Program-made: the position numbers and the translations under genes
From: Dactylonectria macrodidyma
Taxonomy: Eukaryota; Ascomycota; Sordariomycetes; Hypocreales; Nectriaceae
DNA: 64,000 nt
Assembly (NCBI GenBank): GCA_020744425.1
Contig: JAGMUV010000020.1
Location: 310,001-374,000, forward strand
Direction: 5' to 3'
Shown: in pieces, positions 10,217-50,296 of the stretch
Layout: the number at the start of each line of letters is the position of its first letter
Numbering within the stretch: the stretch's first letter is position 1
The notes under the pieces: generated by a model
Database searches by the model: none
Told to the model about the DNA's origin: nothing
What the model saw: the letters and a program-made list of their open reading frames with translations, nothing else

Positions 10217-11610
10217 TCATCTCCACGTGCGTCCAGGAGGAAGGCCATTATTTCCTTCCCTCATATGCTTTGCTACAGCTATAACAGCCTCCTGCGCGAT
10301 CTTAAACTTATCTTCATATGCCTGCAGCAAAGAGTCCACTGATTCCTCCCCTCTCGAATTCCTCGCTGCAGCTATGACATCCTCCTGCATAATCTTAATC
10401 CCATCTCTACGCGCCTCGAGGAGTAAGGCTATTATTTCCTTCCCCCCGATATTCTTTGCTGCAGCTTCGATAACTTTTGGCGTGATCTTGATCTCGTCTC
10501 CACGCATCTCTAGGAGTAATTCCACCATATCTGTTCCCCAAGGATTCCCCACTGCGGCCAAAACAACCTCTTCTGTGACCTTGACCTCACTCCCGCGTTT
10601 TTCTAGAAGCAAAGTCATGGTCTCCTCTCCATGAAACGCTCCCGCCGCAGCCACGACAGCCTTCGGCGTAATCTTGACCTCATCCCCGCACTTCTCTAAG
10701 AGCAAGTCCATCATCACTTTCCCTTGCCAGTTAATCCCTGCCGCAGCCTCAATGACCTCCGGTGTAATCTCAATCTCATCCCCATACTTTCCCAGGAGGA
10801 ATCCTACCATCTCATTCGAACCTCCCTTCACTGCAGCTATCATAACCTCCTGCGTGATCTCAACCTCGTCCCCACACTTCTCCAGTAGCAAGGCCATAAT
10901 GCCTTTCCCACTAATGCCATTCCCCGCCGCAGCCTTAACAACCTCTGGTGTAATCTCAACCTTATCCCCATACTTTTCCAGGAGGAAGGCCATCGTCCCA
11001 CTCGACCCTTTCTTCGCTGCAGCCATGATAACCTCTTGGGTGATCTCAACTTCGTCCCCACGCTTCCCCAGGAGTAAGGCCGTGATCTCTTTTCCACACC
11101 TCTTATTACTCGCCGCAGCCTTAACAACATCTGGCGTGATCGTAAGCTCATCCCCGCATTTCTCTAGGAGTAGCGCCACAATCTTATCCCCAATCCCATC
11201 ATTACCCGCTGCCTCCCGAAGCACGCTCTCCGTAACCTCAACCTCATCTCCGCGCTTCTCTAGTAATAAAGCCATCATCTCTTGTCCATAAAAGATATTC
11301 CCCGCTGCAGCAATGATAGCCTCCTGCGTGATCTTAACATCATCCCCATACTTCTCCAGGAGTAAGACCATTACCTCAAGCGTATTCTCCGTTGCAGTTA
11401 TAAAGACTCTCTGCGTGATCTTAACCCTATCCCCGTACTTCTCCAGTAGTACATCCATCATCTGTTTCGACTTCCTCGCCACTGCCACAACAACTTCCTC
11501 CGTGATCTCAACTTTATCCCCACACTTCTCCAGTAGTAAAGCCATCACCTCATCCCCACCCTGCCAACAGTGTGCCGCAGCCATGATGACCTCCTGTGTG
11601 ACCTGAGCCC
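10217..11610 (-). repeat. In-gene array of ~96-bp repeats encoding the NLR sensor
   Basis: There are fourteen full units plus a partial one, with highly alike segments (ALLLEKCGDEVEITQEV and close variants). Variation concentrates at the middle of each unit, between the AAA and the ALLLEK helices. High internal similarity is typical of NLR repeat domains that undergo unequal exchange. Confidence 0.85.
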
Positions 11611-14595
11611 CACTGCTGAGGAGACATCCTACAGCCCTTGTATGCCCTTTCGATGCGGCTGCTAGAAGAGGTGTTCGGAAATAACCAGCCCCAGTGTCAC
11701 AATCAGCGTCGTGTTGAAGCAGCGTTTGAACCAGCTCGCTATGGCCCTGCGCCGCTGCAGCCGTAATCGCTGTGCCGAAGTATCCGCCACGTGAGTTGAT
11801 ATCAACCTTTTCTTGGTTCACCATGTGTACAACGACCTCGAGTAAACCAAAATAGCTTGCAAGCGTTAAATCTGTCCAGCAGAACACATAGCTGAAAGGG
11901 AAATGTCTTGCCTTCCTATACACTTCAACCCATGTCGGTGTTTGTCCTCCGGAGATACGACAGAGCGCCCGGGCAATTTCGCAAGATGTAACTCTCTGAT
12001 CCCCATCCTGGGAGTTGTAGTGTAACGCCCAATTCACAGCAGCGTATGAGATGAATAGCAAAGCCTCATTGCCGGGCCTATGGTGCGCTATCATATCGAG
12101 ATCCTGAAGTATCAATAGGCGGGCGCAGGAGATAAAGACACTGCTATGCGCCAGAGGCATGTTAAAGCTACCTTGCCATGTATTTTGCGATCTAGAATTG
12201 GTGGTAAGAAACTCTCTTGCTGTCTGGTGAATGAAAGACACTTTGTTGTCATAGACATTGATGAAAAGGCCGCAGAGATTTCTCACGGCGCTCTTGAACA
12301 ATTTGTAGGGCCAGAGCTCGTTCTTGAGCTCGTCATAATTGCTGAACCCCTTTTCTTGTAACGTCAAGGAGTGGTTGAGTTCGTCGAGTGTTAGGGGTCG
12401 TGTAGCAGCGAGGATAATACGGAGGAGACATCTGGCTTGCTTTTCATCCTGGCTGCGGCTCAGAATCTTCTCGTAAGCATCAAATACTCCAGATGGGAGA
12501 TGAGATAGCAGCGTATGTATGCTCGAGGGCTTGCTGAACGCGCTCCGCTTTTCGTTGATAATACTGAGTGTAAGATGAAGCCAGAGATAGGTGCGGTTCT
12601 CCATAGCCTTCAGGCGCTTCGAAATCTCCCAACGATGTTTGTCAAGAAAGTCCTTCCCGAATTCGTTGACTCTGTGGTCAATGACGAGGTCAATCTCATG
12701 ACGAATCTCCTCGGACTTGTCATCTCCGTCAAATCGGATATACGATTCAGCGGTTGCCAAATTCTCGAAGGACATCTCCAGGTCATCATATGGACGGCTT
12801 GTGATGAGGAACTTGAGCCTCGATGAAGATAGATGCACCTGGTCGCTGAAGTAGAAAGTCTTAAGCACTTCGAGGATCCCCTGACGGCCATTCTTACTGC
12901 ATTCGTCCAAGGCATCAAGAACACAGACGATCTCTCCAGCGTCGGGGTTCCTCGCGCAATCTGTCAAGATTTGCCAAAGCTGGTGAAAGTTGTCTCGCAG
13001 CTTATCTCCATAATTCTTGAAGGAACTAGCTGCGTGGCGGATTAGAGAGCTAGTCCTGTTTTGAGTGAAGAGCTGGTGCAAGAGAGCGGACAATGCGTCA
13101 GAGCTGTTGATACGCCGATCTTCGCCATCTTTGAAAAAGAAGTAGCAGACAGTGGTGGTTGCAGTGCTTGTCGACAGTCGGCCTTCGTCGATCAAGGCCC
13201 TCGCTAGTACGGACTTGCCGCAACCAGGACCGGCGGAGACCCAGATGATGCTCGAGGCGGTGCTGTCAAGCCATTTGTGAAACCGTTGGTCCCTGAAGAA
13301 CCACTCGCACGTGCCAGCGACTCTCCTGGGGTTGAAGTTCTTATACGCGTCATGTTCAGCTGCCAGCATCTGGAGCAGTTTTGTTTCTTTCTCGTTATGT
13401 TCGGCTCGCCCTGCGAGATCTGGATTCTCGATATTCGGAACGGGGGCTAAAATCTGTTAGTGAAGACCATTGTGTTTGGGATAAGCTACCTACACTGCGT
13501 GCTAGGAGCCATTGACTTATCCGTGTGTGGATAGGATTCCAGAAGTGCCTTCGTTGTGGAAGCTGCCCTTGCTGCAGCAAAGTACTGCCATTTTTTGTTC
13601 TTGTGGCTGTCTGCGTAGTCACAAACTGCCTTGACAACTATGCACGGGATCTCGTCCCATACACCGGCTCCTTCCATTTCGAAGGCAATAAGATTGTGCT
13701 CTCTAGCAATCCTGTCGCGATCTAATCCAGACTTCATCACGGTATCGCCAGATCCCACGCGCCCAACTAACACTTGAAGTTCTTGCGCTATTATAGTATC
13801 ACATTCTTGGCTGGGATCGGCTTCTTGGTTCTGCATTTTCCGCTTCTTAAGGCGCCTCCTGGACACATGACGTCCGACATCACACTGAAGCTCCTCGCAC
13901 GAAGCACCAAGAGCGGTTTCGCAGGCACCTGATTCACTGCAGCGACAGTTCTGACAACCACGGTGCCTGTGGATATAGGCGGGTTCGAAGAGGCAGTCCT
14001 CTGCCGCCATAGGACACTTATACAAGCCATGATGTCCGGCAACCGTCGCCTTCTGCTGGATTTGCTCTAGGACCTGGCTGGCTCGCCGCTGCAGGTCGTC
14101 GCAGCCACGGGATGTCCCAAACATCGCAACAAGGGATCGAATATTCTTGCTGGGCCTTCCCAAGCTGTCCTCAACAGTGTCTTTCGTGGAGAACCTGTCG
14201 GGATACCGTCGGCCCAGGTCGTATTGTACGATGCTCTTGCTGATAACTACGTCTCCGAGGAGAAGCTCGTTTTCGGTCTCGACTCCAGGCACCCCACCAC
14301 AAATGCCAGCCAAGATGGCCAACTGGATGCCGGTATAGCTCGATCGGAGGCTGGCTGCTGCGCTTGCTGCATTGGTTTTTCCCATGCCCGGGAGGAGAAG
14401 CAGAACAACGTTATGGCTTCCGATCCGACCGGTCTTGTATTTATTATAGTCCCCAGGTGCATTTCCTAGCTGCCTTCCATCGTCTTCCGGGATCTCGTCG
14501 AAGGCAAGCACTACGGCATCGTATTCGAGGGGTAGAGCGCATATAACCGCGATCTGGAAGTCCTCGCGGCGGAGAGCTCGGGCGTGGCTAATCAT
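10217..14595 (-). CDS. STAND/NLR protein: PNP domain, NACHT, ankyrin-like repeats
   Basis: Model complement(join(10217..13446, 13494..14595)), 1443 aa. The 47-nt intron 13447-13493 (GTAGGT...CACTAACAGATTTTAG) joins the two open frames exactly in phase. Residues about 10-365 form a purine-nucleoside-phosphorylase-like domain (GICGGVPG; FEMEGAGVWD) with a Cys/His-rich insertion (CPMAAEDC...CQNCRC). A NACHT NTPase follows: Walker A GPGCGKS at 440-446 and Walker B VLDALDEC near 543-550. Next come two ankyrin-type repeats (TAITAAAAQGHSELV, TPLLAAASKGHTRAV). From about residue 975 there are 14 full repeats of 29-33 aa (T-x-E-V-V-x-A-A-A ... ALLLEKxGDEVEI) and a fifteenth that is cut off by a frameshift. 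Fungal NLRs of this build are cytosolic sensors linked to allorecognition and programmed cell death; a role here is inferred. The last 15 residues are out of the repeat frame. Confidence 0.9.
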
Positions 14596-15700
14596 GGGGA
14601 ATCGTCTTCATGCGCAATCGTCGAAAACTCGTCGCAGTAGGAAGTTGTTGTAGTAAGTTCTATCGACCAGCGTTTGGAGAAGACGAAGAGTTGGTTGATG
14701 ATGGTCGATGGTCGGCGAGACACGCTCTCAGCTGGCCGGAAGGTGTGTCAGATGCAGAATCAGGCTGGCGCTTCACCAGGGATGCCGATTGGTTCGTGTG
14801 TTTAGCCGCTCCACCCATAAATCTTTTCGTTTGTTGTGTGTTACGCTTGCTGAGATTGTCCAACACTCGTTCGAGTTACTAGCTGATCCGATTGACTGGG
14901 GGATGTTGGAGGGCTATTTTTCTTTTTAGAGTTGTGAAGTTTCTTGAGGGCCGTAACTAGGATGTATAGATATTATGTGATACAGGGGGTATCTTTCTTG
15001 AATAGTTAGTGCGCGTAAACTCCCGATCGTTCCCACTGAAAATGTCATCCGGCTCCAAAAATAGTTGCTGGTATTCTGCGCCATCATCCTCCTGTGCACA
15101 GCATCGGCTGTTAGTGCTATCATAACAATGATCAGCGGTACCTTTCGAGTACAACCAGCCAGGTTTGCACAGTCACAATTATAAAGAAATTAGCTTTCTG
15201 AAATAGTTAAACTCAAAGGCCTTCAGAGAAAATGTAATTATACTGGAATTGACCTCGAGGGCTTAAGTCATTTATCTTGACACCCATCCTTGGCGAATTC
15301 AACCACGTTCCGGGTAAATGCCCAGGTGTGTGCTTCGCGAAGATCTCGAAAAGAAGCAGGCGCTGCTTCCCGATCGATGAACAACAGTAATCCAAACAAG
15401 GCAAGCGGTTACCGTATATCAGAAGGCCCTACTTATAGGTGTTATAGTAGAGAATTTACTAAGTGTCAACATATGGAAGCTGCCACTACCCTACAGTTCC
15501 CCAATCAAGATCTACGCGGGGGATGTGGAGAACAGCTTGGTCAACTGACTGGAGTCCGGCAGTAACAAACGGGAGTTGTTGCTCCACTAATTCCCACTGT
15601 AAAACGATTATCCGCTCTATGCCCTCTCGGTTACAACGTCGGGATTAATAATTCTCATTCTGTTCAGCTTAGATTGGGAACTCCAACTGAGCGCATCATC
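14596..15700. other. Divergent promoter region, NLR / MFS
   Basis: The region lies between two divergently transcribed genes. Only short open frames without recognisable domains were seen. The leader of the MFS gene lies at its right end (ATG at 15701, context ATCATCATG). Confidence 0.4.
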
Positions 15701-31849: not shown

Positions 31850-34800
31850 CTAGTCTTCGATGTCTGACTCAATCTGAGACTCGATGACTGCTCTGATGTC
31901 AATAAGGCCTAGATGTCTGACGAATTCTTCAAATTTCTGGCCGGGCAGGGCCTTGGTCAGACCGTCAGCTAGCATCTGACCTGTTGGGGTGTATTTGACC
32001 CTGAATTGCTGATTGCGATAGCCCTGACGAGCCCAGCAGCTGTGGATGTCAACATGCCTGAGGGCAGTCTTGATCCTAGGGGTCTCGAGGGTCACGAGCC
32101 GGATAGTCTGTTGGTTGTCACATTCAATGATAAGTGGCTGGTCCAACTGAAGGCCTAGCTGATCAAAGAGCCGTTGGGTCGCTAGGGCTTCCTTAGCTGT
32201 GTGTGTGAAGGCAAGGAGCTCTGCTTCTGTTGACGAGGTTGTGACTGTATCCTGTTTCCCGGCTTTCCAGCTGATAGGTCCGCCGAAGAGGGATAGGATC
32301 GATCCTTGGGATGATTTCCGGCTGATCTTATCGTCTGCGAAGGATGCGTCTGATGCGATTTGAAGGTCGCTGCCGCATTGGGCTGTTACGGCTGTTTTCG
32401 AAGTCCTAGGAAAGTCAGGGTCACTGGGGACGTCAGGGTCATCAGGAAGGTCAGGATCTCTAGGAAGGTCGTCGCCAGAGACCTCGGGGTCCCTAAGATC
32501 CTTCCCTTGGAATTGAATCGCTAGGAATCGTGTGGCATAAAGGTAGCTGATGACGTTATCAGCTATGCGTTGGTGTTGGTCTGAGGGGTTGTTCAAATGC
32601 TCTGCTAGCTTTGAAGCTGCCTTTGATATGTCTGGCCGTGTGATGACGGCTGCATAGTTGATGGATCCGACCTTCTGTTGGAAAAGGAGGATCTGCGAGG
32701 CAGTGGCTTGAATAGGGCTTGGAAGCAGGTTGTTCATCGGCAGGGGGTTTCCTTTGAAGTGATCCTTAAGGGCAACTTTGAACTTGGCTGTGATATTCTC
32801 GATAAAAGAGTCCTGACAGAGCCACAGCTTTCTAGCAGGCCTGTCCCTTAGGACCCTGACGCCGAGGAACCAGCTAAGATGCCCTAGATCCTGCATCCTG
32901 TACCGCGTTTTTAGCTGTCTGATGAGACGGTCAGCGGCTAGCTGGTCTTTCTTCCTATACAGCAAGACGATGTCATCTACGAAGAAGAAGACTGTGATCC
33001 AGCTGTTGTTGCAGATGCAGGGGTCTTCATTGAGCTGGCTAAGACCTAGCTGCTCGAAGGTCTGAAGGAGGTCTCGTTGCCAAAGTAAGGGAGATCTGCG
33101 GAGCCCGTACAGAGCTTTCTGCAGCAATAGCAGCCAACCGGTCCTTTGAAATCCGTCAGGATAGCGGATGTAGATGACTTCGTCGAGGTGGCTGTTGGTG
33201 AAGGCGTTGACTGCGTCTAGCTGCCGGGCCTCGAGGTCAAATTTGGCTGTAATAGCCATCAGGATCCGGAATGACTTCCCTGCTAGGGTTGCTGCATAGG
33301 TCTCCTTGTTGTCATAGGGTTGAAGATCCCCTCGAACGCACAGCCGTGCCTTAAACCGGATGAGAAAGCCGTGCTTGTTTAGCTTATATTTGAAGACCCA
33401 GGTGACAGGCAGAGGGCTTCCTGTTGCTTTGTCTTTAGCAACAGCTTTGAAGGTCCCTTGTGCCCACAGGCTGTTCATTTCCCTGTTGGCTGCTTCCTTG
33501 AACTGTGGTCCAAATCGATGACTTTCTAGGTCTCTGAAGATCCTAGGTTCGGGAGGAAGGGACCGTCTGTGGACCTTTTCCTCTCTTCCATTGAAAAATG
33601 CTGTGAAAAAGCTAGCTGGCGGGCGGCCCTGTTGACGTTGAGAGCTCCGGGAAGCTGGTCCGTATATCTCTTCCTGCCTCCGGCGGCGCCGTCTTTCCGG
33701 CCGCTGTGGGCTCGGCTCCCTGCTAACTGATGGGCTAGCTGCCGGACTAGCTGCCGGGCTGGATGGAGAGCTTGTTGCCCTTGGGGTTATGTAGGGACCT
33801 TCTTCGTCAAAGTCAGAGGTCCCTTGGTCCTTGGATTGAGTGGTCTCAACACTAGGGTCTTCATTGAGGTCAGGGTCTTCAGAGATGTCAGAGTCTTCAG
33901 GGCTCTGGTCATCCTCTGCAACCTCAATCGTTGATCTGACGTCTTCGTCGTCTAAAAGGTCAGTATCAAGGTCATCCTCTGTAACCTCAATCGCTGATCT
34001 GACGTCTTCGTCATCTAGCAAATCGGTCTCAGAGTCGGGTTCGATGTGGTCAGGAAGTTGAAGCTGTGGTGGCTCTGGCTGATGAAGGGGATCAGGATGA
34101 TCCTTTGGATCATAGAGGATGCTTTCATTGAAGGTCACATCCCTGACTCTTCGGACCTCAGACCGGCTAGGGACCCAGATCCTATATATGTTGCTGGATT
34201 CGTATCCAACGAGGTATCCGACTTCTGCGTGGGCTGTTGTCTTGAGAGACCGTTTTTGGGTGCCCTGCAGAGCTTCCTTAGTCAAGGGATAAGCTCTGCA
34301 TCCATAGGCCTTGAGATGTGTCAGATCAGGCTGCGTTTTCCTGCTGTATCCGGTATCCCGTCCGTGGGTTTCCAGCCAGCTGTGAAGCTGCTCGAAAGGG
34401 GTCTTCCAGTTGCTGGACTGCTGGGGCGATCTGTTATGTAAATAGACCGCTGTTTTCCACGTCTCGGGCCAAAGGTCGGCTGGAAGAGAGGCTCCTAGCT
34501 GCATTGCCCTGGCCTTGGTCCCTATTACCCCCCCAGATCGCTCCGCAGAGCCATTTTGAGCAGGTGTATAAGGGGCGGTTGGTTCGTCCTCGATCCCTAG
34601 GTCCCTGATCCAGTCTTCATAACCTGACCTTAGGGCCCTATCGTTGTCTCTGTGGATCACACAGATAGGCAGCTTGTATTGCCTTCGAGTGTGATTTTCG
34701 AAGTCCTTGAGGGCGTCTAGAATAGCCTCTTGTGTCAGGTCGACTAGTAGATAGATGAAGATGATCCCTGTGTACTGGTCCTTGATCAAGATAGCTGCCT

Positions 34801-36802
34801 TTTTGCCGTTATAGCTAACAGGCAGGCTGAAGAGATCGATATAGATGCGCCAAAATGGCCGTGGAGCCTTAGACTGAGGGGTCCGGCGGGAGACTATCCG
34901 GACTGCCTTTGCTAGGGAGCAGGTTTTGCAGCTGATCTTAGTAGGTCCCTTGATATTGGTCCCTGTTGTCTGCTCAACAAGGTGCTCTAGGGCCGGGGCG
35001 TTCAGATGACCTAGTCTAAGATGCCAGAGATCTGCTTCCTCTGTCTGAGACAGCCTGGGGTTCCTAGATGTTGAAAATGCTGATCCCGGCTGTTCTGTCT
35101 GCTTGATCTCATTGAATTCAACGACCCATTGACGATGCAGTCGTCTTGTGTGGAAAGGAGTGTCTGTTCCTTTGAAGACAGCCCCTGTGGCCGGGTTCCA
35201 ATTATATCCCTTTGCAATCAGGGCATCAAGGGAGACAACGTTCGTGTGGAAGGCAGGGATGTATGCTACCTTCAGCAGTTGGAACAGACCGTCTTTTATT
35301 CGAAGATGAATTCGTCCATAGCCTAGGATTTCCATCTGGAAGCCGCCTGTGTAGATGACTTCGATCTCCCTAGAAGCTTGATATCCTAGGAACCTGGATA
35401 GGTTATTGCAGATGTGAGTGTCTGACCCGGAATCTAGGATAAAGGAATCCTTCAACGGGTAGATCATAGTGGCTGAAAATGATGATTGATCCGGCTGCGG
35501 GCCGGGCTGCTCTGTGGGCTGCTGTCCCGGCCGCTGACCGGGCTGCTGAGCCGTCTCTGAAGCTGTCTGCAGGTCGGGCTGCGAGACAGTCTGTTGTGTG
35601 GGCTGCTGTCCCGGCCGCTGACCGGGCTGCTGAGCCGTCTCTGAAGCTGTCTGCAGAACGGGCTGCAAGACAGGCTGTTGTTGCTGTTGACTTTGATAGT
35701 AGGGATAGCTGGCAAATGCAGATCCTTTGATTTCCTTGTCCTCAGAGGTCTCTGCTGTTTCGTCAGGCCTAGCTTCCTTCCTCTGGGCTTTCTCGATAGC
35801 CCTGTCAACCTGTTCCTTGATCTTGGGCTCCTCGAGCCGCCGGTTGATCTTGGCCTTGATGTCTTCTTTGGCTTTCCATCCGTTAGGTCGTATCCAGCTG
35901 ATCAGGTAATAGCATTCCGAATAGTAATGCCGTTTCCCGCATAGACAGACCGGCTTGGAAGAGCCTGATTTTGTGGGTCTTTGTCCGGTAGGTCCGGAGC
36001 CTGTGCCGGATCCACCGGATGTCTCAGGAATCCCTTGATAGCTAGAAAAGCCGGTCTTGCCAGCCTTTGACGGCATTGGGGTCTGTTTTTCGAACATGTT
36101 GCTGATCTCAATACCATCAGGGATATTTTCCTTCCAGCCCTTTTCACCGCCGCGGGCGATGTTTTCTATCATTTGCAGCCAAAAGTTGGAAAAGGCCGGA
36201 TTGATAGTACTGACAGCTTGAAGGAAATGTCGGGTAGGTCTGATCCCTTGAGCATCCGGGAGGTCGATTTTCTTAGCCTCTGTTAGGACCTTCTGCCAGC
36301 TTATGACCCATTGTGTCAGTTTGGTCCTATCTGGGCTCTTTAGAATGCTCTGAAAGCGTTCTAGGATCCTATCTTCGAGGTTCCAGCTTGTTGGTTCGAC
36401 CCTATCCTTGAGAAGGGAGAGCTGCTTAGCAACATCAGTTTCATCTTCGATAGTAGTGTGATAGCTGCCGGCAGTCTTTGTGATGTAAAGCTGGATGGAA
36501 GTCAGGGCCTTCTGCTTGTCCCGATAGACCTGGAGATCGGTCTTATATTGGTTGTGAAGGAATTCAAGTCTTCTGAACTCGTCAGTACTAAGGGCCTCTA
36601 GCCCAGCTGCTTGGGCTTTGACCGTTGTGTATGTTGGCTTCAGAGGGACAGCTAGGACGGGCTTGTCAGACTTGGAAGGGTCTAAATAGGCCCAGACATC
36701 TGAGGCGGTTGCATGCTTCTGGATGATGCTAATCCACGGTTTCCAGTCACCGGGGCCTTGGAGGGTGACCCGGGAAGAGCTTCCTAGATCTGTTGGATCC
36801 AT
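31850..36802 (-). CDS. Copia Gag-Pol polyprotein
   Basis: A single 1650-aa frame without stop or frameshift. Gag occupies about 1-300, with a short zinc knuckle CLCGKRHYYSEC (C-x-C-x3-H-x4-C, a spacing variant). The aspartic protease has DSGSDTHIC near 455. Integrase has an HLRLGHLN zinc-finger start near 595, then catalytic core pieces YIDLFSL, HRDNDRAL and NGSAERSGG. A Ser/Pro/Asp-rich linker lies at about 920-1060. Reverse transcriptase starts near 1130 (DAVNAFTNSHLDEVIYI; the active-site box is FFFVDDIVLL). RNase H lies at about 1480-1630 (IASDASFADDKISRKS; SSTEAELLA). All key acidic residues appear present, so it is likely active or recently active. Two internal duplications (a 60-bp Gln/Pro-rich one and a ~66-bp acidic one) lengthen the linkers. 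Confidence 0.95.
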   Translation of the reverse strand: MDPTDLGSSSRVTLQGPGDWKPWISIIQKHATASDVWAYLDPSKSDKPVLAVPLKPTYTTVKAQAAGLEALSTDEFRRLEFLHNQYKTDLQVYRDKQKALTSIQLYITKTAGSYHTTIEDETDVAKQLSLLKDRVEPTSWNLEDRILERFQSILKSPDRTKLTQWVISWQKVLTEAKKIDLPDAQGIRPTRHFLQAVSTINPAFSNFWLQMIENIARGGEKGWKENIPDGIEISNMFEKQTPMPSKAGKTGFSSYQGIPETSGGSGTGSGPTGQRPTKSGSSKPVCLCGKRHYYSECYYLISWIRPNGWKAKEDIKAKINRRLEEPKIKEQVDRAIEKAQRKEARPDETAETSEDKEIKGSAFASYPYYQSQQQQQPVLQPVLQTASETAQQPGQRPGQQPTQQTVSQPDLQTASETAQQPGQRPGQQPTEQPGPQPDQSSFSATMIYPLKDSFILDSGSDTHICNNLSRFLGYQASREIEVIYTGGFQMEILGYGRIHLRIKDGLFQLLKVAYIPAFHTNVVSLDALIAKGYNWNPATGAVFKGTDTPFHTRRLHRQWVVEFNEIKQTEQPGSAFSTSRNPRLSQTEEADLWHLRLGHLNAPALEHLVEQTTGTNIKGPTKISCKTCSLAKAVRIVSRRTPQSKAPRPFWRIYIDLFSLPVSYNGKKAAILIKDQYTGIIFIYLLVDLTQEAILDALKDFENHTRRQYKLPICVIHRDNDRALRSGYEDWIRDLGIEDEPTAPYTPAQNGSAERSGGVIGTKARAMQLGASLPADLWPETWKTAVYLHNRSPQQSSNWKTPFEQLHSWLETHGRDTGYSRKTQPDLTHLKAYGCRAYPLTKEALQGTQKRSLKTTAHAEVGYLVGYESSNIYRIWVPSRSEVRRVRDVTFNESILYDPKDHPDPLHQPEPPQLQLPDHIEPDSETDLLDDEDVRSAIEVTEDDLDTDLLDDEDVRSTIEVAEDDQSPEDSDISEDPDLNEDPSVETTQSKDQGTSDFDEEGPYITPRATSSPSSPAASPAASPSVSREPSPQRPERRRRRRQEEIYGPASRSSQRQQGRPPASFFTAFFNGREEKVHRRSLPPEPRIFRDLESHRFGPQFKEAANREMNSLWAQGTFKAVAKDKATGSPLPVTWVFKYKLNKHGFLIRFKARLCVRGDLQPYDNKETYAATLAGKSFRILMAITAKFDLEARQLDAVNAFTNSHLDEVIYIRYPDGFQRTGWLLLLQKALYGLRRSPLLWQRDLLQTFEQLGLSQLNEDPCICNNSWITVFFFVDDIVLLYRKKDQLAADRLIRQLKTRYRMQDLGHLSWFLGVRVLRDRPARKLWLCQDSFIENITAKFKVALKDHFKGNPLPMNNLLPSPIQATASQILLFQQKVGSINYAAVITRPDISKAASKLAEHLNNPSDQHQRIADNVISYLYATRFLAIQFQGKDLRDPEVSGDDLPRDPDLPDDPDVPSDPDFPRTSKTAVTAQCGSDLQIASDASFADDKISRKSSQGSILSLFGGPISWKAGKQDTVTTSSTEAELLAFTHTAKEALATQRLFDQLGLQLDQPLIIECDNQQTIRLVTLETPRIKTALRHVDIHSCWARQGYRNQQFRVKYTPTGQMLADGLTKALPGQKFEEFVRHLGLIDIRAVIESQIESDIED
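35513..35656 (-). repeat. In-frame 60-bp direct duplication inside gag-pol
   Basis: 35513-35572 and 35597-35656 are identical 60-mers with an offset of 84 bases (28 codons). They encode a repeated Gln/Pro-rich unit (around QTASETAQQPGQRPGQQPT). A second, less exact duplication of about 66 bases lies at about 33905-34036 and encodes DDEDVRSxIEVxEDD. Confidence 0.85.
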
Positions 36803-36901
36803 CGGATGCAGGGACAGCTGCAGTGGAAGCCGTTGATCTGACCTGATAGAGATCTCAATAGATGACAGAAAGGTCTGTCAGTAAGGGAGAAATGGAAGAA
36901 T

Positions 36902-42165: not shown

Positions 42166-45100
42166 CTAATCTCTGTCATGAAGCACTAAGCCACCATGAC
42201 CTATCAAAACAAACGGAGCCCAGAAATAAGGATGCGTATAGTCCAAACCCATGTCCTGGATGTCTTCGATCGCAATATCAATCTGACTCCTTACCCACGA
42301 AGGGATCTCGTTAAGAATATTCCCTTTCCTACCCTCCATGTCCCAAACGTTTCCCATTTCTTCCAATAGTTCGATAGCGCGACGTTGATCCATTCTATAC
42401 AGCTCAATCTGCGCGTTACGCCAGCATGTAGCGAAAGAGACACCGGGCTCACAATTCTTAAGTCGGCGGCAGAAGAGGTGTGTCAACAGCATAGTCGCCA
42501 GGTCATTGACGTTCCATAGTCCACCAAGATAGGATGAAGCCCCGGAAGCAAGCACAGCGTGCGAGAATCCAAGGATGTCGTTTCCAACTGTTTCCTTTCC
42601 AAGCCCGCTGACGCACGCCGCGAAGATGACGATCGCGGCTTTGCTACGCAACTCGGCAAGCTCTAGGACGCGAAATGGTTGCTGCAACAGAATGGAAGAT
42701 TGCCATGGGGACGTTCCCGTATGCAGGCCGTGAGTGGCAATAAAGACAACGTCTGACGATTGATAGAGGTCTTTGAACTCTTCCCGACTGACGTTATTCG
42801 CGTTCCTTGTAGTGGATCCAAATACCTGGCCAAGGTTAACACCCCCAATTCCAGCGAATGGTAGAGGGCTCCCTCCAACACTACCGTCCCTGACTCCTGG
42901 TTTTACAATCACAGAAGTTGCAATCTCGTTGCTAGTATTTTGCTTGTCGACCAGGCGCTGCAGAGAACATAGGCTGGGTATGAGCGAGACGGCTGCCTTG
43001 AGGAATAGCGGCTCTCCGTCAAAAATCAATGCAGAAAAAGGGAATTTGTTGAAAGAGTGGGATGGGGCAAAGATGATATGGTTCTTCCGTCTGATGAGAG
43101 GTGCAAGCGGTTCGACGATAATTGCGGATATTGGCTCTAGGAGCGCCATCCATTCTGCGGGGGCTGGAGGTTCGCCTTGTGTTTTAGGGGTTCCCAGCAA
43201 TTTCAGGCAGGCTAGGACAGTCTTTTGTATCTCAAGGTCAGTCAAATCGCTCTGGTGCACAATCTCGATTCCACTGCAAGTGACACCAAGGAGCAGAAGA
43301 CCTTCCCTCGACAAGGTGATGTATGCTACCGCCGCGTCCTGGGGAATACAGCGATACAACCCTTCCGCATCGGAAGAAAACCCTGACTCGGACAGCATGG
43401 AAGCTATACCCTTTGACTGAGTCTCCAGCTTGGCTTGTATGGCTGACAGCTTCGTCTTTTCAACTCCCAATCTCTCCGCCACATCAGTAGCAGCCTTGTC
43501 GCGCTCGTCACCGCGAGGGGCTAGGGATTCAGATAGCAAACGTATCCGGTACGACTCGTCTGACCATGCCTTCAAGGCCTCCCTGGTAACTTTCTTTTCC
43601 ATTATCAAGAGGTCGAGTAACCCCCGTGCGCGGCCTTGCTCGAGGAAAAGAAGGGCTTGGTCCTTCCAGGTTGGCCCAGGGAGATTCCATTTCCTCAAGC
43701 GCCCCCGGCTTCCTTCAGGCTCACGAATGGCGTCGAACCGCAAGGCAATTCTAGCAAGCCCTGAAATCAGCTCCCCGGAATTGATAGTGCTGAGGACGTC
43801 ACGGCGGGCGTCCGGATCCTGCATCTGACTGCGTTGCGATTCCACGAGTCGAAGTGTAGCCAGATACCACTCGAAAGCGGTATCCAGATTCCCATTGTTC
43901 TCTTCAATACAGGCGATCCAAACCATCAACGTCCAATTGTCAGCATCCTTCGGCAAATTCTCTAGCTTGAGGAGCTCTGGAAAGAGCCTTCTAGTGTTCT
44001 CGAGAACTGTCGCGCCCTGCCGCCACGCTTTTGCAATGAAGCACTTCCCGATGTAGTCCTTGACATTGCCTTCTTGCCTCTGTTGCTCAGCAAGACGGAG
44101 GTCTAAAGCAGCGCCACTGGGAAGTGGTAGGCTAAACGGATCACTGGCTTTGCCGCCATAGACGACCGGGAGGATGCTGTCTAAAATGCTCTGTGCCCTT
44201 CCAAACTCCCCGAGATGGTGTAGTGTGGCTAGTTTAAGCGTATCAAGAAGTTTAGACTTGAACCCGGAGACATTATCAAGACTGGAAATGAAGTCTCTAA
44301 AGATCCTTTCTGATGCATCTGCGTCAGCATCCTGTAGAAGAGCCTCTTGGCTTTGACGGATCACCTCGAAATATTCCGATTGCAAATCCCCAAGCTCTTT
44401 GGCGGGGTTTGCAATTGCGTTCTCGAACTGTGAACTCAATCCCGGATAGTTTGACATCATTCTTGCGAGAGCTGCGACTACAGCTGGAAGTGACGAGCCT
44501 CCGGTGAGGCGTTGATGAGCTCCCCGACTTGCAAAGGCGGAAGTGCTGGACTGCTCAATCGAGTTCATCACCCGATTGAAACCCTGGTGATAGTTTGTTT
44601 TCATGAACTGGATCGTCTGAGCATCTGGGGCGCAAGTCTTTCCAGAAACAGCTTCGATCAATGAGTCCAGCTGTGCGAGCGATTGCGGAAATAGCTGTCT
44701 GCCTTGATCTGCGAGAACACGAGCTACACCAAGGTTTCCGCAATCTCTCTGGAGCTCCGCGTGTGCGACCAGGGCATGCAACTCGAGAACTTTGTCACCA
44801 AGTCCACGAAAGCAAGCCTTCGCACAAGCACAACATTTCAAGGCCGCATCCGTGCTCCCTTTCTCCGCGTACAGTTTCCGGCCAAAGCGGAGGACTAGTA
44901 AACCGATGAATCGGGACACGGAATTGTTGTCTGCTTGAAGGCCCCAGGAACCAAGATTGGTGGCCCTCTCGACCAAGTCCGAACTGTCGCAACCAGTGGC
45001 AATGTCGAGAAGCAAGCGGTGGCCGGCAACCAATTGTGTGTTTGTGAAGTCTCCTCTAAAGAGGTCGTGTGCATTATTGAGACTGCCGAGCGTTGGCTGA

Positions 45101-46143
45101 AGAAATTCCGGCCGAGCCCGCCCATCGGGGCTTTGGAAAATGGCTTCCGCGTGCATGACACATGCCATGCGCAGGTAGACGGCTCCCTGTCCACGGGGTT
45201 TGCCGGCTCTCTCAAAGAGGTTCAGTGCCTCTTCATAGTGTGAACTTGCTGTATCGTTGTGTCTAAGCGTGAACTGCGGTTCGAGCCGATCCCAAGTGCT
45301 GTTACTCCAGCTTAGACCATGGTCCAGCGGCATAAGATTGAGAGCGAGAGGGCTTGTATATGGCGGAGAAAGAATGTGATCGGCTTGCAGAAGTCTGAAA
45401 TTAGCTGCCCCTGCGAGATCGCCCGCCGAGATACATGTCTCATAAAACTGTTGCAGCAACGCAGATATCCCCTCGGTTCCTCCAGCCTGTTGATACTCTG
45501 TTTGAATCCGATCTAGGTAAACCTTGAGTGTAGGAAGCTCCAAAGTAACAGCCAGGGTAGGGGTCTCAGGGGGATAAATTTCCGTCGAGTCGAATGTAAA
45601 ACCCCACGTGCTGTTGGGGTAACTTTGGTTATGGTCGTATGCCTTCCATAGATTGTCGTAGTACCAAAAAGAGCTCCAGATCAAGTTGCTCTCGAGCTCC
45701 TCAACCACGGACCAGCTCGAAGCCCTATTTCTCCGCTCGCTCCTTAGCTGCTGCTTGCTTTCAAACATCTGAAGTTTCGCGTCCCTCAACTGCCCCGACT
45801 GGCTTTCCACGTCCGGCCAAAATCGCAAGATTGCAGGGGCTCTCTTCAGAGACAGCAAGTACGATTGATAAGTCCGACAACGCGAGAGCCAAGCACTGTC
45901 CAATCCGCTCTGTGCCAAACATTGCAAATCCGCCAAATACCTGTCGGCACCGGAAAGATTTCCACGCAATGCATCTTGTATCGCTCTCAGGAGAAGAAGA
46001 GCAGCACGTTCCTCGTTTGTTGGGATGTTGGAAGTGGCGGATTCAAACGCCTGGATCCAGTCTTCAGAATCCTTGAAGTTAGTACGATACTCTTCCGCGA
46101 ATATTGTGCCGCCGAACACCTCGAGCACTTGGGTGAAGTCCAT
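42166..46143 (-). CDS. TPR-CHAT caspase-like protease
   Basis: Single exon, 1325 aa. Residues about 1-900 are helical and TPR-like (for example ERAALLLLRAIQDALRGNLSGADRYLADL; ALNLFERAGKPRGQGAVYLRMACV; AFEWYLATLRLVESQRSQMQDP), as expected for a sensor or scaffold. The C-terminal CHAT domain covers about 960-1320 with FAPSHSFNKFPFSALIFDGE, a catalytic histidine at 1138 (VFIATHG) and a catalytic cysteine at 1177 (FAACVSG), then GNDILGFSHAVLASGASSYL and GGLWNVND. Both dyad residues are therefore present. CHAT domains are caspase/separase-like cysteine proteases. It is divergently transcribed from the gasdermin-like gene 619 bp away, an arrangement reported for fungal gasdermins and their activating proteases. 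Substrate is inferred, not shown. Confidence 0.9.
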   Translation of the reverse strand: MDFTQVLEVFGGTIFAEEYRTNFKDSEDWIQAFESATSNIPTNEERAALLLLRAIQDALRGNLSGADRYLADLQCLAQSGLDSAWLSRCRTYQSYLLSLKRAPAILRFWPDVESQSGQLRDAKLQMFESKQQLRSERRNRASSWSVVEELESNLIWSSFWYYDNLWKAYDHNQSYPNSTWGFTFDSTEIYPPETPTLAVTLELPTLKVYLDRIQTEYQQAGGTEGISALLQQFYETCISAGDLAGAANFRLLQADHILSPPYTSPLALNLMPLDHGLSWSNSTWDRLEPQFTLRHNDTASSHYEEALNLFERAGKPRGQGAVYLRMACVMHAEAIFQSPDGRARPEFLQPTLGSLNNAHDLFRGDFTNTQLVAGHRLLLDIATGCDSSDLVERATNLGSWGLQADNNSVSRFIGLLVLRFGRKLYAEKGSTDAALKCCACAKACFRGLGDKVLELHALVAHAELQRDCGNLGVARVLADQGRQLFPQSLAQLDSLIEAVSGKTCAPDAQTIQFMKTNYHQGFNRVMNSIEQSSTSAFASRGAHQRLTGGSSLPAVVAALARMMSNYPGLSSQFENAIANPAKELGDLQSEYFEVIRQSQEALLQDADADASERIFRDFISSLDNVSGFKSKLLDTLKLATLHHLGEFGRAQSILDSILPVVYGGKASDPFSLPLPSGAALDLRLAEQQRQEGNVKDYIGKCFIAKAWRQGATVLENTRRLFPELLKLENLPKDADNWTLMVWIACIEENNGNLDTAFEWYLATLRLVESQRSQMQDPDARRDVLSTINSGELISGLARIALRFDAIREPEGSRGRLRKWNLPGPTWKDQALLFLEQGRARGLLDLLIMEKKVTREALKAWSDESYRIRLLSESLAPRGDERDKAATDVAERLGVEKTKLSAIQAKLETQSKGIASMLSESGFSSDAEGLYRCIPQDAAVAYITLSREGLLLLGVTCSGIEIVHQSDLTDLEIQKTVLACLKLLGTPKTQGEPPAPAEWMALLEPISAIIVEPLAPLIRRKNHIIFAPSHSFNKFPFSALIFDGEPLFLKAAVSLIPSLCSLQRLVDKQNTSNEIATSVIVKPGVRDGSVGGSPLPFAGIGGVNLGQVFGSTTRNANNVSREEFKDLYQSSDVVFIATHGLHTGTSPWQSSILLQQPFRVLELAELRSKAAIVIFAACVSGLGKETVGNDILGFSHAVLASGASSYLGGLWNVNDLATMLLTHLFCRRLKNCEPGVSFATCWRNAQIELYRMDQRRAIELLEEMGNVWDMEGRKGNILNEIPSWVRSQIDIAIEDIQDMGLDYTHPYFWAPFVLIGHGGLVLHDRD

Positions 46144-46762
46144 TGTAGGGGTTTAGGATTGGCGCGAATATCAGGAAGTTGAATTTGTAAACTCGAAGCT
46201 CTAGACAAGTTCGTGCAGGCCCAGGCGGCTAAGGTGCATGTGGGAGACAACAAGCCGTATCGTCCCCAGCAGGTTGAAATTGCAGAGTTGCGTACTTGTC
46301 AGAGATGATGATCATGTGGTTTAAAATCTTCGAGTGTGTGGCAATATTGGGTAAGTGATAAATTCACACGTATTTGGCCAATTCCTCTGGTTGCCAAAGA
46401 GCTCTTTTGCGGGCTTAGAACTGCTGGGGAGTGGCTGGGCTAGGTGACGTAGGAGAATTGTCATGCAATGCACATTGCCACATGCGGAGGCCGCCACATA
46501 TGCAAAGGCGCCCACCACATTTCAGGAGCTTTTCAGCATGCAGAAGTCTGTCTAGCCCAAAGCCCTCTCGGGTTAGCATCGAACTTTGATATTTCGGCAT
46601 CATCTTGCAGCGAGCTAGGGATTATATGTTGGCTTGGGGGGGTATTAAGGGGCTTGGAAGGTTGGCCTGCTTTCTCTCAAGCCACACTAAGCATCCATAT
46701 ATTAACTAACCTGCGGTCCGTTGCAAAAATATCTAGACTATCAATCTCTATATGCCTGCAAA
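46144..46762. promoter_or_regulatory. Shared divergent promoter of the CHAT and gasdermin-like genes
   Basis: 619 bp lie between the two start codons. AT-rich elements near the right gene include ATATATTAACTAAC (about 46697-46710) and CTATATGCC (about 46748). Otherwise no gene is seen. Sharing one promoter region would allow joint control. Confidence 0.5.
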
Positions 46763-47762
46763 ATGTCTCCCAAAGACGAACCAACATTTTACCTCTATGG
46801 GACGGGATATCATCTAGAGCAGCTTACACTGGGCACGCTTGTATATGGCAATTATGCCCAACCCGATGTTCGATTTTGCACTTTCCCAAGATTGAGGTAA
46901 ATTTCGGTGCCTAGTGATGACGCCTTCTACCAGAGCATGCTAACATGTCTAGCGAGGACGACCTTGACAACACTGAACTGGTGTTCTCACAACCGATCAG
47001 TGGCTCTTTTACTCCTAAATCTAATCGCAAGTTCGGCTTTGGAATCGAAGCCATCGATATGGCCACGATGAACATTGAAATTGCGAGGCAACGAAGCAAA
47101 ATCATTGTCGCTGAAAGCGGTCGCCGTATTACCTTGAAAAAGTGAGTCGCCTGGCAAAGTTTAGTCCTGCTATTAATTGTGAGGATCCGAAAAGCCCGGG
47201 AGCGTTCTTTCTTGAGAGGGTTATCAAAGCGCCAGAGACACGAGACGCCCTGGCTAGATGGCTCACTGTAGCAAGAAGCGCTTACCTAGTGTGGAAGAAG
47301 GTCACACTTTGTAAGCCCAAGATATACTGCGTCACGGGAATATACGAACTCCGAAACGTCCAGGCCAAAACATCCGAAGGAGGAACAGGCTCGTTCACCA
47401 TCGGCTCCGCAGCTCTGGGTGCTGCGGCTGGCATACCCCTAGGAATTACCCTTGGGCCGTTTGAGGGAGGCAAAACACTCGACGTCGACATTTCTATGCC
47501 AGGGCCTAGCGTATGGGCAGCAAGATTTCAACAACTGGATGCCGAGTACATCAAGAAAATAGCAACACAAGAGGTAACACCGCTGCAGACGATTAAGCTT
47601 CGTGCAGACATTACTTTGCCATCTGCGGGGGTCCGAGCAGACGCAGAAGTTGAAGGCGCTGTTGTGAAGATGCGGGGGCCTGAGGAAATGCCAGATGAGG
47701 CGGACGATGTCGTTGACGAACAATATTGGGAGGCATTCAGCAGGGCTGAAAAGCGCCTGTGA
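46763..47762 (+). CDS. Putative fungal gasdermin-like pore-forming protein
   Basis: Model join(46763..46896, 46953..47141, 47195..47762), 296 aa. Exon 1 (MSPKDEPTFYLYGTGYHLEQ) is joined by a 56-nt intron with a GCTAACATG branch. The second intron (53 nt, AAG acceptor) is the only in-frame choice of normal length and gives SGRRITLKNPGAFFLERVI. The pattern LTLGTLVYGNY, then KPKIYCVTGIYELRNV, a Gly-rich hydrophobic run (ALGAAAGIPLGITLG) and VWAARFQQLDAEYI resembles fungal gasdermin-like proteins in length (about 250-300 aa) and beta-strand alternation. The last ~29 residues are an acidic linker plus a short helix, where an inhibitory C-terminal tail would be. Neighbouring the CHAT protease supports the call. 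I rely on recognition, not on a search; another uncharacterised beta-rich fungal family is possible. Confidence 0.6.
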
Positions 47763-49010: not shown

Positions 49011-50296
49011 TTAGAGAATTACGCACCCCGCCGCCATTGGGCTTCCAACCATGTAGGATGACAAAATCGCAGCCCCGTTCATGGCCATATTCCCTTCTGG
49101 GGGAAAGGGTATGCCCTCTTGTCCATATGTGCCGTTACCGTCAAGCCAATATCTCTTGCCTGGTAGTGGGAAAAGGCCCATTTTGTGCAAATAACTAAGG
49201 TCAGCTGCGTGTATCTCCCGGCCATTGATATACACATTCGTGCTAGAGTAACCAGAAGCGTTCGATGCAAGCGTGCCACCGAGGTTCATCCCAGGAAGAA
49301 TCTGTCCAATACAAGGTCCGCCGTGGGTGCCATAAAGACCAGAACGCGTGTCGTACCTAGCAGGGTTACAAGTTATTAAGCAGAGCGACTTATTGACTCA
49401 GATGGATGGGCGTTACCAGTAATTTCCTGGCACAACTCTTACACCAGCGCTGACTAGTTGGATGTATTGGGCAGTGTCAAGCGGCGCACCATTGACCGTG
49501 ACGCCGTAGGGGGAGGTTATGGGCTGAGCCTGCCGTTGGGGAATGGGAGCAGTATAGGTGGGAGTCGGACTGTTCGCAGTGGGTTCTGAGACATTGTGTG
49601 AGAATTTCATCCCCGCCAAAGTGAAATGGGAGGGCGGTTACGCTGGTAATAGATATAATTGTTGATGGTGTTTGCAAATTGCGGAGCTCTGTGAACTGGG
49701 CTATTTGAGGGCTGGCCAAAGAGCAGCGCGTCGAGACTGGAAGACGCTGGTCTAAACGCAGGCCTTGCCGGAACACTCTCTTCCTCTGGCTCAGCCCACA
49801 GCGGTGTAAGGACGCGTGGCGTACTATGTCCTATGGCAAAAGGTGATCTAGGAATGCGTAGGACTTCCTCAGCTGGCTCGGGGGCTGTGACGTGTGGGGG
49901 GTCAGGCAATGGAGTCGTTGGGATCGGATGCTGAAACGTGTCTGTTAGGAACGGCACCGAAGGTGAAATATCGGTCCTAGGTTGGTAAGTATCTCTGCGA
50001 CTGGCTTTTTCTGTCTCAGGTACAGCCTTGTCAGGGTTGTCTGTTGAGTAGGCCTCAGCAAGATTGTTGATGATGCGATCAGTAGTTACAGCCCGTGGGA
50101 CTATTCGACAATGGGGACAAGATGCGCTTGGACTTGACAGCCAGGTCTTGATGCAGGCGCCACAGTATATGTGCTGGCAGTCGAGGAGCTTGACAGGGTC
50201 AAAGAAGATAGACTGGCAGATCTAAGGAGGCCATGAGTAGTTGTGCAAAGGGTTAGACTATCGTAAACCTACCCCGCAAGTAAGTTCTTGCTCCAT
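49011..50296 (-). CDS. RING-finger protein, probable E3 ubiquitin ligase
   Basis: Model complement(join(49011..49356, 49417..49585, 49642..50221, 50273..50296)), 372 aa. A 24-nt first exon (MEQELTCG) supplies the first RING cysteine; the 51-nt intron follows. The C3HC4 RING spans residues 7-45: C-x2-C (TCGICQSIF), C-x-H (LDCQHIYC), C-x2-C (CGAC) and CPHC. A proline-rich disordered middle (about 60-200) follows. The C-terminal block after PGNYWYDTRSGLYGTHGGPC and GQILPGMNLGGTLASNAS ... VYINGREIHAADL is the conserved tail seen in fungal RING proteins of this type. It would transfer ubiquitin to unknown targets. Exons 2-4 join in frame with normal GT-AG sites. Confidence 0.85.

Follow-up and report, generated by a model that had tools for sequence, protein, structure and literature searches.

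We report a predicted cell-death unit of two genes in a 64,000-nucleotide stretch of the Dactylonectria macrodidyma genome (contig JAGMUV010000020.1, positions 310,001 to 374,000; this whole stretch is referred to as the window, and all plain coordinates count from its first letter). A gene for a CHAT-domain protein and a predicted gasdermin gene stand back to back, and the CHAT protein would very probably act as a protease that cuts the short C-terminal tail of the gasdermin, which would lead to pores and cell death. Four observations define the pair: the layout, a conserved catalytic dyad, the relationship of the small protein to gasdermins by profile and predicted fold, and a recurrent CHAT neighbourhood of gasdermin-like loci. 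A CHAT–gasdermin pair is thereby added for a Nectriaceae fungus on profile, fold and neighbourhood evidence. An initial annotation had called the locus a candidate cell-death module, and candidate is still the right word for it.

The CHAT gene runs from 42166 to 46143 on the minus strand as a single uninterrupted frame of 1325 amino acids (P0004 in our numbering of proteins, on a contig of 1,404,641 bases). The frame had previously been described as intact with a His1138/Cys1177 dyad, and both statements proved accurate: the frame is open, and the two predicted catalytic residues are encoded at 42730..42732 and 42613..42615, respectively, on the minus strand. A Pfam scan placed the CHAT domain (PF12770, E 3.8e-36) at residues 1003-1315 (42199..43137, minus strand) with a score of 125.5 bits against a curated cut-off of 24, and a whole-genome search gave the same place. 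His1138 and Cys1177 were invariant in 13 of 13 aligned sequences, namely that of the window plus 12 homologues (identity 27-86%). These 13 were taken from the 17 closest matches (P0004-P0020), of which the organism-named ones are all fungi; P0011, P0012, P0018 and P0019 were omitted because they were partial or over-long. From the sequence, we predict that an intact CHAT gene encodes a caspase-like protease.

In the earlier label TPR-CHAT, the first half is weak. TPR_12 reached 20.1 bits, below its curated cut-off of 30.1, and this weak match was seen in just one of the 13 family members. Since the approximately 1000 N-terminal residues matched no Pfam family above cut-off, a TPR sensor can be assigned by analogy only. 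Beyond Pfam, the CHAT family profile found no relative among solved structures at E 0.01, NCBIfam gave just a weak local match to Csx29 (18.4 bits against a threshold of 300), and no PADLOC model matched the CHAT protein or the small protein. The CHAT protein belongs to its own lineage of proteins of about 1,320 amino acids, whose named members, as we understand their taxonomy, fall in several classes of Pezizomycotina.

Both genes share a divergent intergenic region (46144..46762), which measured 619 bp as had been proposed. The small gene lies on the plus strand with exon 1 at 46763..46896, a 56-bp GT...AG intron at 46897..46952 with a CTAAC that we take to be a branch-like motif, exon 2 at 46953..47141, a second GT...AG intron of 53 bp at 47142..47194, and exon 3 with the stop codon at 47195..47762. 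This splice model yields exactly the 296 amino acids anticipated by the initial annotation. The product is identical to the deposited D. macrodidyma protein EDB81DRAFT_889602 except for splicing, as the deposited model restarts at 47276 instead of 47195 and, at 269 amino acids, drops 27 residues. The 27-residue block also occurs in P0002 of Thelonectria olida and in two remoter relatives, P0049 and the Emericellopsis protein P0050, the last of which is without the residues immediately preceding the block, and in the profile alignment the block matches up with part of the wider gasdermin-like family. Because relatives keep these residues, we prefer the 296-residue model on sequence grounds and reject the deposited one, whose gene model is corrected by restoring the skipped block. 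The support from relatives covers the start of exon 3 at 47195, and the splicing proposed earlier is to this extent supported. Where the first intron lies, the T. olida model is longer by 12 residues, possibly because part of that intron was retained.

We predict from its profile and modelled fold that the small protein is a fungal gasdermin, in agreement with the original proposal. The pooled family profile (A4) matched Neurospora RCD-1-1 at E 2.8e-4, a paralogue-only profile reached RCD-1-2 at E 1.1, and the profile of the window protein's own clade alone matched no characterised gasdermin. The fold comparison was performed with the predicted structure of the 85%-identical T. olida orthologue P0002 in place of the window protein itself, and gasdermins filled all 25 best rows with a moderate best Z of 8.2; the structures likened by fold include RCD-1 (8jyz) and the bacterial 7n51 and 7n52. 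An earlier AlphaFold model from three sequences had a mean pLDDT of 28.1 and was not used. As a single query, the small protein matched nothing in Pfam or among PDB sequences and gave a chance match only in NCBIfam, and the clade profile returned just one chance antibody match (E 0.69) from PDB sequences. The clade is small and divergent, with five sequences found, including the window's.

Relatives of the pair were then compared. The gasdermin search gave three proteins, the window's own among them, and a later profile search added the clade members P0049 and P0050; as the first search requires shared 5-residue words, it can miss divergent gasdermins. Two of the four gasdermin relatives lie on contigs identical in size to one bearing a CHAT homologue, the linkage being read from these sizes and not from the DNA itself. 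In T. olida, P0002 and the CHAT homologue P0005 (86% identity) are both on an 88,725-base contig, and on a JGI contig of 14,943 bases the gasdermin P0003 accompanies the CHAT homologue P0008 (37% identity). The window proteins are both 85-89% identical to their T. olida counterparts, and the identity of the JGI-contig homologues to the window pair is about 40%. A third gasdermin relative is on a contig of just 1,202 bases, too short to judge. Among the 16 other closest CHAT matches (P0005-P0020), only P0005 and P0008 share a contig size with a gasdermin match. The conserved pairing that the initial annotation expected was hence seen in two relatives, which indicates that the pair has been kept in Thelonectria and in one distant relative.

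A similar association recurs within the D. macrodidyma genome (77 Mb in 77 contigs). A whole-genome search found distant paralogues of the small protein and no second copy. The genome contains 17 gasdermin-like loci, among them fragments and stop-ridden copies, none of which was dropped (the weakest, on contig C56, at E 0.0016), and 49 CHAT matches. Eight of these loci (on C13, C9, C24, C17, C1, C76, C21 and C43) have a CHAT match no more than 10 kb away, six of them in divergent orientation, C21 convergent and C43 in tandem. If the two starting loci on C13 and C9 are left aside, the count is six of 15. Random placement would give 0.013 per locus, corresponding to binomial probabilities of 1.8e-11 for 8/17 and 2.2e-8 for 6/15, values that ignore gene clustering in the genome. 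Subtilisin-like S8 peptidases, taken as a comparison, gave 45 matches, and these come within 10 kb of one of the 17 loci (C56).

With regard to the mechanism, the N-terminal part of about 1000 amino acids would sense a trigger, by analogy with known systems, and the CHAT domain would then cut the neighbouring gasdermin, which we infer to be its substrate, in the linker around residues 247-258. Residues 247-296 (47610..47759, plus strand) comprise, according to alignment and model, a low-confidence linker followed by an acidic C-terminal tail past residue ~247, which is predicted to be inhibitory. The putative cleavage region corresponds to a low-confidence stretch of the orthologue model (P0002 257-268), and the acidic tail released, for cuts after residues 258 down to 245, would measure 4.4-5.7 kDa; its YW-containing end is conserved within the clade. 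The gasdermin part freed in this way would assemble into membrane pores that kill the cell; the outcome would be a regulated cell death serving defence or non-self recognition.

The kind of unit is already known, because both CHAT–gasdermin clusters and an activation in Podospora have been published. Fungal two-gene clusters of a gasdermin (fGSDM) and a TPR-bearing CHAT protease were described by Clave et al. 2022 (via PMC12881547, PMC10197012). The initial annotation's statement that fungal gasdermins are often found beside proteases, CHAT types included, agrees with this work: about 80% of fungal gasdermin genes cluster with protease genes, and approximately 17-19% of the cases are CHAT (Clave et al. 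2022 via PMC10197012, PMC12881547, PMC11138114, PMC10989679, PMC9815663). The same five sources relate that a TPR-bearing CHAT protease of Podospora anserina activates its neighbouring gasdermin. The window shares the adjacency of the CHAT protease and fGSDM genes with these clusters but differs in an N-terminus with no TPR above threshold, in a CHAT lineage of its own and in a gasdermin from a divergent five-sequence clade. A literature search with the species name and gasdermin found no published account of this D. macrodidyma pair. HET-Q1 of P. anserina, at 278 amino acids, is similar in size to the window's fGSDM, and the protease HET-Q2 removes approximately 5 kDa from its C-terminus (PMC10989679). 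However, HET-Q2 belongs to the S8 serine proteases (388 amino acids) and the het-Q genes are idiomorphs (PMC10989679), whereas the window holds a CHAT protein and both genes in one haplotype. Bacterial gasdermins are likewise encoded with proteases, CHAT proteases among them, and have a similar fold (PMC10197012; 7n51, 7n52); these systems differ in being bacterial, and the PADLOC models fit neither window protein.

One alternative is that the pair serves as an allorecognition (het) locus and not as a pathogen sensor, with an alternative allele in some strains and death after hyphal fusion, comparable to het-Q1/het-Q2 or to hetB of Aspergillus fumigatus. In A. fumigatus, the hetB allele for a CHAT protein of 1,327 amino acids, nearly the window protein's size, causes incompatibility upon transformation, and growth was disturbed in both strains when the opposite allele was introduced (PMC11138114). 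The other idiomorph encodes a predicted protein of 149 residues in the opposite direction to the CHAT allele, and the authors raise gasdermin involvement as a question (PMC11138114). The protease allele is present in all six assemblies of A. udagawae, a relative of A. fumigatus (PMC11138114), and the window CHAT protein aligns over its full length with the 1316-residue A. udagawae protein P0020 at 27% identity. In contrast to the idiomorphic hetB alleles, both genes of the window are found in one haplotype and must therefore coexist without killing, and we regard a het locus as a rather unlikely reading. An assignment of the pair as a hetB ortholog was not adopted either, as the likeness consists of just a similar size and the 27% identity to the A. 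udagawae protein.

Another explanation accepts the gasdermin but not its cleavage by the neighbour: it could be activated without a cut, as RCD-1, or through a different protease, the neighbourhood then being historical. The RCD-1-1/RCD-1-2 pair of Neurospora crassa (8jyz) has the gasdermin fold and a detectable profile similarity to the window protein, yet it consists of two antagonistic allelic variants and is reported not to be under proteolytic control (PMC12881547). The initial annotation had named both rcd-1 and het-Q as protease-activated; this is right for het-Q, where HET-Q2 cuts HET-Q1 (PMC10989679), and was rejected for RCD-1. Consistent with activation independent of the neighbour, nine of the 17 gasdermin-like loci lack any CHAT match up to 10 kb away, and for the Emericellopsis relative, on a contig of 183,694 bases, no CHAT homologue with the same contig size appeared among the matches of the CHAT search. 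Against it stand the identical contig sizes that link both homologues in T. olida and on the JGI contig, at about 40% identity, and the excess of CHAT neighbours at gasdermin-like loci. We consider this explanation improbable and favor cleavage of the gasdermin tail by the CHAT protease.

It seems very improbable that the small protein is a different pore former from the wider MACPF/CDC superfamily, or has an unrelated fold; the 25 best rows of the fold comparison with the orthologue model were gasdermins and no other fold. A decaying locus, in which one gene of the two is no longer functional, would match the broken copies elsewhere in the genome (an interrupted one on C24, one with 16 stops on C45), but is scarcely credible for an open 1325-residue frame with an intact dyad and two proteins so close to those of T. 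olida.

A possible third partner of the CHAT–gasdermin pair is a RING-finger gene (PF00097, E 2e-8) at about 49014-50221 on the minus strand, 1.25 kb past the gasdermin gene, and it carries two VNG/ING...PGxYW-like modules. Its module exon matches the genome at one further place, C15:646084-646368. This match adjoins the CHAT gene at C15:650577, which ranks as the best paralogue of the CHAT protein in the window; no RING was present in the two frames of the C15 module gene that were scanned. Tentatively, and with rather low expectation, we suggest that the lineage of about 1,320 residues is the Aspergillus hetB lineage, that the short hetB idiomorph is the gasdermin partner, split off between alleles, and that the Dactylonectria unit may add the RING/PGxYW gene as a third member. 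The pair also gives a lead on what the hetB CHAT protease of A. fumigatus may act upon. Next to the module gene and CHAT gene on C15, a 700-residue frame was observed (L004 2793-4892, minus strand), which by its motifs we presume to be caspase-like (C14).

Several further observations were made. The gasdermin-like frame at C56:3312654-3313208 lies 2.6 kb from a divergent S8 match (C56:3309390-3310094) and represents a serine-protease type of pair. At C24:519440-519994, next to the CHAT gene C24:523638, the gasdermin-like gene breaks off and gives way to a different frame, which we assume to resemble a Helitron-type protein. The match at C45:14509-15276 contains 10 TAG and 6 TAA stops and zero TGA, a pattern that we take to be repeat-induced point mutation. 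Within the window, 28 kb from the pair, a PNP_UDP_1 frame followed by an NPHP3_N–ankyrin–DUF7104 frame (10220-14607, minus strand) has the look of an NLR-type gene. Finally, a 1675-residue frame at 31853-36877 on the minus strand contains RVT_2 together with further Pol domains and is presumably a Copia-like retroelement.
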